Program-made: the position numbers and the translations under genes | Origin: Oscillospiraceae bacterium | Lineage (GTDB): Bacteria; Bacillota; Clostridia; Oscillospirales; Oscillospiraceae | Direction of reading: 5' to 3' | Assembly (NCBI GenBank): GCA_020866945.1 | Contig: JAJBVW010000122.1 | Coordinates: 1-32,124 of the forward strand | DNA: 32,124 nucleotides | Shown: positions 10,837 through 13,359 of the stretch, in pieces | Numbering within the stretch: position 1 is the first letter of the stretch | Layout of the letters: every line of letters begins with the position of its first letter | The notes under the pieces: generated by a model | What the model saw: only the letters and a program-made list of their open reading frames with translations | The model's database searches: none | Told to the model about the DNA's origin: nothing

Positions 10837-11313
10837 TCAGTTGCTCCCGTTTTCTCCCTGCTTGTCACCCAGGAGCTTTGTAAGCTCCTCCATAAAGGTG
10901 TTCAAATCCTTGAATTGACGATAAACAGAGGCAAAACGGACATAAGCCACCTCATCCAAATCCTTCAGGCGCTTCATAATCATTTCCCCGATTTCCGTTG
11001 TTGTAATTTCGCGCTCCAGCGCGTTTTGCAGCTCCGCCTCCACGGAATCGGCAATGGCTTCCAACTGGCGCAGGGGAACGGGGCGCTTCTCGCAGGCGCG
11101 CACCATACCGTTTACGACCTTCACCCGGTCGAAGGTTTGGCGGCTGCCATCTCGCTTTATCACAACGAGGGGCATACGCTCAACCTTTTCATGGGTTGTG
11201 AACCGTTTTGAACACATCAGACACTCTCGCCGGCGGCGGATGGTACTGCCCTCGTCCGCCGGGCGGGAATCAATGACCTTGCTCTCCGCATAGCCGCAAT
11301 AGGGACACTTCAT
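10837..11313 (-). CDS. nrdR: Transcriptional repressor NrdR
   Basis: The 158-residue product has an N-terminal zinc ribbon with two CxxC pairs (CPYC and CLMC, residues 3-34) and the [17 protein letters not shown] signature. An ATP-cone domain follows ([18 protein letters not shown] onward). NrdR senses ATP/dATP and represses ribonucleotide reductase genes by binding paired NrdR boxes. No RNR gene is in the window. I chose ATG 11313, which begins the conserved MKCPYCG and has GGGAGGG upstream; the track start adds five residues. The C-terminus is slightly longer than usual (DKQGENGSN). Its own promoter region carries a dyad that could mediate autoregulation. Confidence 0.95.
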
Positions 11314-11366
11314 GACGAACCCTCCCACAATTTTTTAAATTCTGAATCTACCAAATATCGAAAATA

Positions 11367-11483: not shown

Positions 11484-11726
11484 ATGAAACATTTTTTACA
11501 TAGCTTCAAGCAAATATCTCCGGCAGGCCTGCTGGCAGTACATATTATTCTGGCGTTCTGCTGTGTCATGGTGTTCGCCGCCTTCGTGATATGCCTGTTC
11601 GCGGGAACGCCATGCGCCGCTAATTTCAATCTTTACCGCCTTGCGCAGGAAATGGCGGACACCCCGGCGGGTGTTCTCCTGCTGGCAGGTATTGCGCTCA
11701 TTATTTTTGAATCCCAGCATTTTTGA
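11484..11726 (+). CDS. Small two-helix membrane protein, unknown function
   Basis: The 80-residue product MKHFLHSFKQISPAGLL... has two hydrophobic helices: about residues 16-41 (VHIILAFCCVMVFAAFVICL) and about 62-75 (TPAGVLLLAGIALIIF). A short loop between them contains a Cys (GTPCAANFN). I do not recognise a family. Support for its being real comes from the promoter placed at the start, the matching membrane pattern, and GC-biased third positions. The track gives an earlier start (11442), but ATG 11484 fits the promoter. Its last residues (ESQHF) come from a 16-bp tandem duplication; without that it would end ESQPR. The 3' end is antisense to the extended tail of the RNase M5-like gene. It is divergent from nrdR. 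Confidence 0.5.
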   Translation: MKHFLHSFKQISPAGLLAVHIILAFCCVMVFAAFVICLFAGTPCAANFNLYRLAQEMADTPAGVLLLAGIALIIFESQHF

Positions 11727-12316
11727 ATCCCAGCCGCGATAGCCTTAATTTCCTCCAGGGATGAGAGCACGTTTAGCGCCTCCAGCATGGCGTTTGTCGT
11801 CATGCGCTCCGGCAACCCCAGCGCCTTTAGCAATATACCCCTGCTGGCCGCGCTGTCCGGGCGCCCGGAAAAGCCAAGGGCATACAGCTCCGCCTTGGTG
11901 ATAGGTGGAGCCTTGCTCTCCTGCTCTGAAGTCTCATCCAGTACGGTAACGCCTGCACGGCGAAGAGCCTGCTCCAGTATTTCCCGGCTCATACCCTCTA
12001 CGCCCAGCTTTCCCTCCCTGGAGGGGGCTTTTTTTCTCCGTTCCTTGCCGTAAATATCCGGTACATAGGCGTGCTTCCCCATCGAGGGATCTATGGCTCC
12101 CCGGAGAAATTTGCGAATCACAAAGCCGCCGCCGTCCCCATCCGTCAGCACAACCAGCCCCCTAATCTGGGCAAGGCGGCGCAGAAGAGCCAGCTTTTCC
12201 TCATCGGAAAAAATACCGAAACCCTTGGTCTCTATGATAACCGTGTCCACAACCTGCGCCAGTGCAGCCTTATCATACCGGCCCTCCACTACGATGGCCT
12301 CCTGTATCCGCATCAT
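11633..12316 (-). CDS. rnmV: TOPRIM-DUF4093 ribonuclease M5-like protein with a frameshift-extended C-terminus
   Basis: The 227-residue product has an N-terminal TOPRIM domain: AIVVEGRYDKAAL (metal-binding Glu), ETKGFGIF, and VVLTDGDGGG (DxD). A DUF4093 region around residues 130-195 follows. This matches clostridial RNase M5-type proteins; RNase M5 matures 5S rRNA in Bacillus. No 5S gene is nearby, so the substrate is inferred. The last 28 residues (from CWDSK onward, Arg-rich) look non-native. They arise because an exact 16-bp tandem repeat at 11703-11734 shifts the frame just before a TAA stop. Removing one copy gives a 199-residue protein ending AAGIQK. The ATG overlaps the holA stop by 4 bases, so translation is coupled. 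It is the last gene of the alaS-HIT-comEC-holA run. Confidence 0.82.
   Translation of the reverse strand: MMRIQEAIVVEGRYDKAALAQVVDTVIIETKGFGIFSDEEKLALLRRLAQIRGLVVLTDGDGGGFVIRKFLRGAIDPSMGKHAYVPDIYGKERRKKAPSREGKLGVEGMSREILEQALRRAGVTVLDETSEQESKAPPITKAELYALGFSGRPDSAASRGILLKALGLPERMTTNAMLEALNVLSSLEEIKAIAAGIQKCWDSKIMSAIPASRRTPAGVSAISCARR
11703..11734. repeat. Exact 16-bp tandem duplication spanning two convergent gene ends
   Basis: ATTTTTGAATCCCAGC occurs twice back to back (11703-11718 and 11719-11734). Sixteen is not a multiple of three, so the second copy shifts both the plus-strand small gene and the minus-strand RNase M5-like gene at their C-termini. Confidence 0.97.
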
Positions 12317-13359
12317 GATCGATCCACGGCGAGCTGCATCAGCAGCTCCTTCATCAGAGTCTCCGGCTCGCCGCCGGTGTCCTTCATGCGATAATCACAC
12401 TGAACGCAAAGACTAACCGCTCTGGCCAGCCGCTCCTGGGAATAGTTTTTGCAGGCACCTTTCAGCAGCCGCAGCGGATAGGCCCGTCCGGCAAGCTCCG
12501 GGATGCAGGAAGTAATATAATCTTCCCCCCTGCTGCTGTCCGCGGCTACACGGGCTACATACAGCCGCCGAAACTGCTCGCTGACCATGGCAATCTGCTT
12601 TTGGGGCGGTTCATCCCGATCCGCCAGCAAATCCGCCAGTACGCCTGCCGCCTTATCATACGCCCGGCGTCCCAGGGCATCTGTCAGATTGAAAATTGTG
12701 GTCTCCGGGGCGCGGCGGGCCACAGCGTCGATGTCACGCTTTGTGATAAATTCCCCCTGTGCATAACCGGCAATTTTGATAATCTCTGGTATCAGGGTAT
12801 TCATCCTGGCTCCACAAACCCAGATAAGATACCTCGCGTCAGCCCCATCGATGCTTTTCCCCTGCCCCTCAACGCGGCGGGAAACCCAACGGATAAGCTC
12901 ATTCTCCCGCGGGCTTGAAAAAGCCAAGTCATACCCCGCCTTTTTCATGGCCTTCACGGCGCCAAGTCGGCTGTCCGGACTGTACTCCGGGCCAAAGAGA
13001 AAAACCACCGTGGCCCATTCCGGTATATCTGACAACAAACTTTTCAGCCTCTCCGGGTCATAGGCAGAGGTCTTGTTTACGTCAAAATCCCGCACCTCTA
13101 CAAGTGTGTGTTCTCCCATAAAGGGCATCGCCTCTACGCTTTCCGCCAGCTTCGCAATATCCAGCGCTTGGCCTTGCAGCCGATGATGGTTAAATGCCTC
13201 CGTATCAGGCTCCAGGCACTGCTTTTTCAGTTCCTCGAGAAAACTGTCCCGCAGATAATCCTCCTCACCACGGAGGATGTATACCCGCGCCGGGCCTTCA
13301 CTCCGAAGGCGCTTTATCTCCGCACTGTAGTCCGCGCCGCCCTTTTCCACTTTAGCCAT
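12313..13359 (-). CDS. holA: DNA polymerase III delta subunit
   Basis: The 348-residue protein is the clamp-loader subunit that opens the beta sliding clamp. It has the family's N-terminal ARVYILRGEEDYLRDSFLEEL segment, an AAA+-like core without a working Walker A (ATVVFLFGPEYSPDSRLGAVKAM, then ELIRWVSRRVEGQGKSID), and the C-terminal helical collar domain (NLTDALGRRAYDKA; KQIAMVSEQFRRLYVAR). The length is typical of Firmicutes (about 340). The start is well supported by AGGAGG 6-7 bases upstream. It overlaps the comEC 3' end by 8 bases and the RNase M5-like start by 4, so it is embedded in a tight operon. Confidence 0.93.
   Translation of the reverse strand: MAKVEKGGADYSAEIKRLRSEGPARVYILRGEEDYLRDSFLEELKKQCLEPDTEAFNHHRLQGQALDIAKLAESVEAMPFMGEHTLVEVRDFDVNKTSAYDPERLKSLLSDIPEWATVVFLFGPEYSPDSRLGAVKAMKKAGYDLAFSSPRENELIRWVSRRVEGQGKSIDGADARYLIWVCGARMNTLIPEIIKIAGYAQGEFITKRDIDAVARRAPETTIFNLTDALGRRAYDKAAGVLADLLADRDEPPQKQIAMVSEQFRRLYVARVAADSSRGEDYITSCIPELAGRAYPLRLLKGACKNYSQERLARAVSLCVQCDYRMKDTGGEPETLMKELLMQLAVDRS

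Follow-up and report, generated by a model that had tools for sequence, protein, structure and literature searches.

A 16-bp tandem duplication in the overlap of two convergent genes alters both C-termini in an Oscillospiraceae genome

Introduction

Overlaps between neighboring genes can lengthen when a stop codon is lost and one gene is read on into the next, a route described for unidirectional gene pairs (PMC3887535). Short tandem duplications place an exact copy of a DNA stretch directly beside it and can be tolerated at gene ends; for an event of the present kind, literature searches gave general background only. The RNase M5/DUF4093 Toprim proteins (TIGR00334, PF13331) form the closest described family for one of the two genes studied here.

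We report a locus at which a 16-bp tandem duplication lies where an RNase M5-like gene meets a convergent small gene tail to tail. The locus sits in a 32,124-nt contig of an Oscillospiraceae bacterium, analyzed over its full length and referred to as the window, and the genome is a fragmented draft of 228 contigs with 10-N scaffold joins. It was compared within a set of 35 genomes of the genus, i.e., this one and 34 others, of which the five closest are designated G001-G005; those near relatives that carry names were assembled from metagenomes and have NODE names in the SPAdes style.

Results

An exact 16-bp tandem duplication had been claimed in a sequence-only reading of the window, and this was borne out, since two copies of ATTTTTGAATCCCAGC were located head to tail at 11703-11734, directly adjacent and with 0 mismatches. 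No further match to ATTTTTGAATCCCAGC was found elsewhere in the window at ≤2 mismatches (0.07 expected), none of the shuffled sequences held two matches, and the 32-mer comprising both copies has a single occurrence in the whole 2.14-Mb genome. When 1.33 Mb of the same genome (141 contigs) was surveyed for exact tandem repeats with a period of at least 13, the ATTTTTGAATCCCAGC pair and only two others were obtained, namely a duplication of 20 bp in two copies and a multi-copy array with an 18-bp unit. Given that ~0.04 such repeats are expected by chance in this survey, the assembly does contain a true duplication, which chance similarity would not account for. As the 1.33 Mb held just one further exact duplication in two copies with a period of at least 13, besides the 18-bp array, there was no sign of a genome-wide wave of such duplications.

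The two other repeats were located as follows. The 20-bp exact two-copy duplication (AAGGACGACCCAGACTATTG; L039:10571-10610, G000:C2) lies at the 3′ end of a small gene and shortens its tail from KDDPDYWEWP to KDDPDY, G004 being single-copy at this site. The 18-bp array (L172:2277-2329, G000:C209) consists of about 3 exact tandem copies and is in-frame in a long minus-strand ORF whose C-terminus resembles a cell-wall anchor signal. A scaffold gap of 10 N at L039:2087 (G000:C2) has an overlap of 9 bases between its two flanks and probably marks a place where a join was missed.

Since 16 is not divisible by 3, the extra bases shift the ancestral TAA-TGA of the M5-like gene out of frame and translation continues 28 codons further, such that the protein reads ...AAGIQK and then CWDSKIMSAIPASRRTPAGVSAISCARR. 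The earlier statement that the stop codon is destroyed thus holds as to the change of frame and fails as to the codons themselves, because TAA-TGA is retained. The addition of 28 residues was likewise confirmed, while their description as Arg-rich fits only mildly (4 Arg and 1 Lys in 28). The overlap with the convergent gene, proposed as 94 bases, was measured as 94 bp. The small gene ends ...IIFESQHF at 11726, its last residues having changed from PR to HF with the protein length unaltered; this agrees with the proposed conversion of ESQPR to ESQHF. The coordinates of all features are collected in Table 1.

Table 1. Features at the convergent gene junction and its neighbors (window coordinates)
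Feature	Position	Strand	Remark
First copy of ATTTTTGAATCCCAGC	11703..11718	.	Exact match; single copy here in relatives
Second copy of ATTTTTGAATCCCAGC	11719..11734	.	Exact match; two-copy junction private to this genome within the genus
RNase M5-like gene (Toprim + DUF4093), 227 aa including extension	11633..12316	-	ORF; Pfam DUF4093 match; Toprim and TIGR00334 below cut-off
Conserved M5-like part, codons 1-199	11720..12316	-	dN/dS ~0.17 vs nearest relative
28 extra residues (CWDSKIMSAIPASRRTPAGVSAISCARR), mostly antisense to small gene	11636..11719	-	ORF; separate frame in relatives
Convergent small gene with hydrophobic stretches (80 aa counted from ATG)	11484..11726	+	ORF; conserved in most of genus
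Tail-to-tail overlap of both genes	11633..11726	.	94 bp here vs 26 bp in close relatives
holA (DNA polymerase III delta), upstream of M5-like gene, same strand	12313..13359	-	
nrdR, downstream of convergent small gene	10837..11328	-	

M5 identity is 95-96% for G001 and 83-84% for G002-G005. The alignment showed ATTTTTGAATCCCAGC as a single copy in all of these close relatives (5/5), and in each of them the tail-to-tail overlap is 26 bp. Their M5-like protein ends ...IQK or ...IPE, equivalent to AGIQK, followed by TAA or TGA, and their small gene ends ESQPR or ESQPQ. In G001 the junction reads GGGATTCAAAAATAATGAGC, with the M5 frame ending ...GIQK at TAA and then TGA and the small gene ending ESQPR. 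The two-copy junction was found in none of the 34 other genus genomes, even when 3 mismatches were allowed, and viral contigs scanned for the one-copy junction gave no match, as expected. The single copy, the AGIQK-equivalent M5 end and the ESQPR/ESQPQ endings of the five closest relatives therefore show that two copies are the derived state, which is private to this genome among the 35. The earlier reading that one copy is ancestral and that one event altered both C-termini is supported by this comparison. A long M5 tail as the ancestral form was ruled out, given that the 34 other genomes all lack the two-copy junction. Residues of the extension match G001, G002 and G004 only in a separate frame past the M5 stop; the extension is the small gene read in antisense, and no protein tail was inherited.

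The M5-like protein matches Pfam DUF4093 (PF13331) over residues 103-193 at 1.2e-19 and 71.1 bits, above the gathering cut-off of 25. Its match to Pfam Toprim, at 8.9e-5, is just under the cut-off. Because the match to TIGR00334 (RNase M5) reaches 64 bits against a curated cut-off of 110.65, ‘M5-like’ is the apt cautious name for the gene at 11633-12316. The Toprim motif residues E11, D59 and D61 are invariant among relatives and the DUF4093 match stops at residue 193, ahead of the altered tail; the change is therefore confined to tails beyond the conserved parts. In comparison to G001, codons 1-199 of the M5-like gene gave a dS of 0.106 and a dN of 0.018 (ratio 0.17), and the small gene a dS of 0.079 and a dN of 0.012 (ratio 0.16). 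Both ratios rest on few changes and are rough, and they place both gene bodies under purifying selection.

The small gene (11484-11726, plus strand) codes for about 80 aa with hydrophobic stretches (MK.FLHSF..ISP.GL...), and most of the genus has it conserved on the strand facing the M5-like gene. A search of Pfam and NCBIfam gave no match for it; its product is membrane-protein-like.

The two genes are conserved, lie on opposite strands and share their 3′ ends, as convergent overlapping genes do. Elsewhere in the genus, the M5 and small-gene ends range from ~129 bp apart to 35 bp overlapped. In another species, G026, the M5 frame runs into the antisense of the small gene over a 100-bp overlap (L027:2118-2217), and the M5 tail includes MSPIPARSSTPAG. 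The G026 tail STMMSPIPARSSTPAGASARAFASR can be aligned with the window tail SKIMSAIPASRRTPAGVSAISCARR, since the two are translated from one and the same antisense frame, and the G026 extension is independent of the one described here. Such an independent extension shows that tails of this sort are tolerated; taken together with the variable end spacing in the genus, it indicates that the tails of this gene pair drift freely, with the extension tolerated and unremarkable.

We found zero residual homology at the edges of the repeat, with no extra matching base beyond the two copies, and in the alignment no repeat flanks the single copy of the one-copy relatives. Single-strand folding of the repeat was no better than that of shuffles (z 0.77), giving no unusually stable hairpin, and hairpin-promoted slippage was rejected on this value. 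In the lack of edge homology, of a flanking repeat and of a notable hairpin, the data speak against classical slippage, which works from edge microhomology or a pre-existing repeat, and the slippage event named in the sequence-only reading is not supported. That reading had also considered a very recent allele; this stands only to the extent that the duplication postdates the split from the nearest relative (dS ~0.1). The identity of the two 16-bp copies dates the duplication only weakly.

Discussion

We consider it likely that the locus carries an ordinary lineage-private tandem duplication, which arose in a convergent overlap after the split from the nearest relative and edited both C-termini. 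A single 16-bp duplication would have occurred in this lineage after its separation from the nearest sequenced relative (G001), inside the ancestral 26-bp tail-to-tail overlap. It would have moved the M5-like TAA-TGA out of frame, extending translation by 28 codons that are read antisense to the small gene, and replaced the last two residues of the small protein, PR, by HF. We infer an origin independent of homology, by staggered-break fill-in or template switch, and not slippage between pre-existing repeats. The allele would be real in the organism and both proteins would stay functional, as only tails beyond the conserved domains change. The duplication is probably neutral or nearly so, tolerated because it falls within the terminal codons of the two genes.

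The duplication could also have been produced during assembly, two pieces with a 16-base shared end having been joined untrimmed while the organism is single-copy, and this we regard as unlikely. An untrimmed join would give the observed lack of edge homology, and the draft does contain many scaffold joins (48 N runs in 1.33 Mb, 43 of them of 10 N); however, where this assembly leaves a join unresolved it places Ns, and the window contains no such site. Recurring exact overlaps of 55 bases at contig ends point to k=55, and a simple k-mer artefact is unlikely because this value exceeds the 32-bp repeat, so that graph assembly would need reads spanning both copies. The presence in the same assembly of a second private exact zero-homology duplication (20 bp) would fit an assembly fault. 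Yet that duplication (L039:10571), which is also frame-shifting and is single-copy in G004, likewise falls among the final codons of a gene, whereas artefacts are expected anywhere and mostly inside genes. The gene-end position of both frame-shifting duplications is what genuine mutations would be expected to show after filtering by selection.

Two further readings would give the altered tails a function. One copy of an exact adjacent repeat can be deleted through slippage or recombination, an event that would here restore the short forms, and a reversible phase switch, in which 16-bp copy gain and loss toggles two C-terminal forms of both proteins, had been suggested on the earlier reading. 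We judge it very improbable. Two copies occur only here, the close relatives being single-copy and the junction absent from the rest of the genus, so no relative offers a further copy number as a phase-variable locus would; no edge microhomology is available to regenerate the second copy; and the genes are of housekeeping type, with bodies intact in both states. Hardly any credence is left for a two-state element, mixed in the population, through which an RNase M5-like enzyme and a small membrane protein would switch their C-termini together. It is just as far-fetched that the M5 tail was selected, e.g., as an added basic tail that contacts RNA. Independent entry of G026 into the same antisense frame could be taken in its favor, but it is the codons of the small gene that incidentally keep the antisense frame open, the tail is missing in nearly all relatives and, with 5 Arg/Lys of 28, it is only mildly basic. 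The predicted structure of the extended protein (mean pLDDT 50.3, 7 sequences) is too poor to interpret and does not inform the question.

Read as a lineage-private duplication, the locus offers a clean, polarised case of a small duplication that, by falling in a tail-to-tail overlap, alters two proteins at once and makes the overlap longer; a second species has entered the same antisense frame on its own. It would serve as an example of the neutral drift of gene ends, and it carries a caution for annotation, as differing C-termini may stem from one small lineage-private insertion.

With the RNase M5/DUF4093 Toprim proteins the M5-like protein shares the Toprim and DUF4093 architecture; it differs in its TIGR00334 score (64 vs 110.65) and in a 28-residue extension that is not common to close relatives. 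The event itself resembles other short tandem duplications in being an exact head-to-tail copy of adjacent DNA that shifts the frame and is tolerated at gene ends, and its only distinction is the position in a convergent overlap, where two C-termini are edited at once. As in overlaps formed by stop-codon loss, a 3′ extension into the neighbor lengthened the overlap; here, however, the pair is convergent, the change is a 16-bp duplication instead of a point mutation, and the genes already overlapped by 26 bp.
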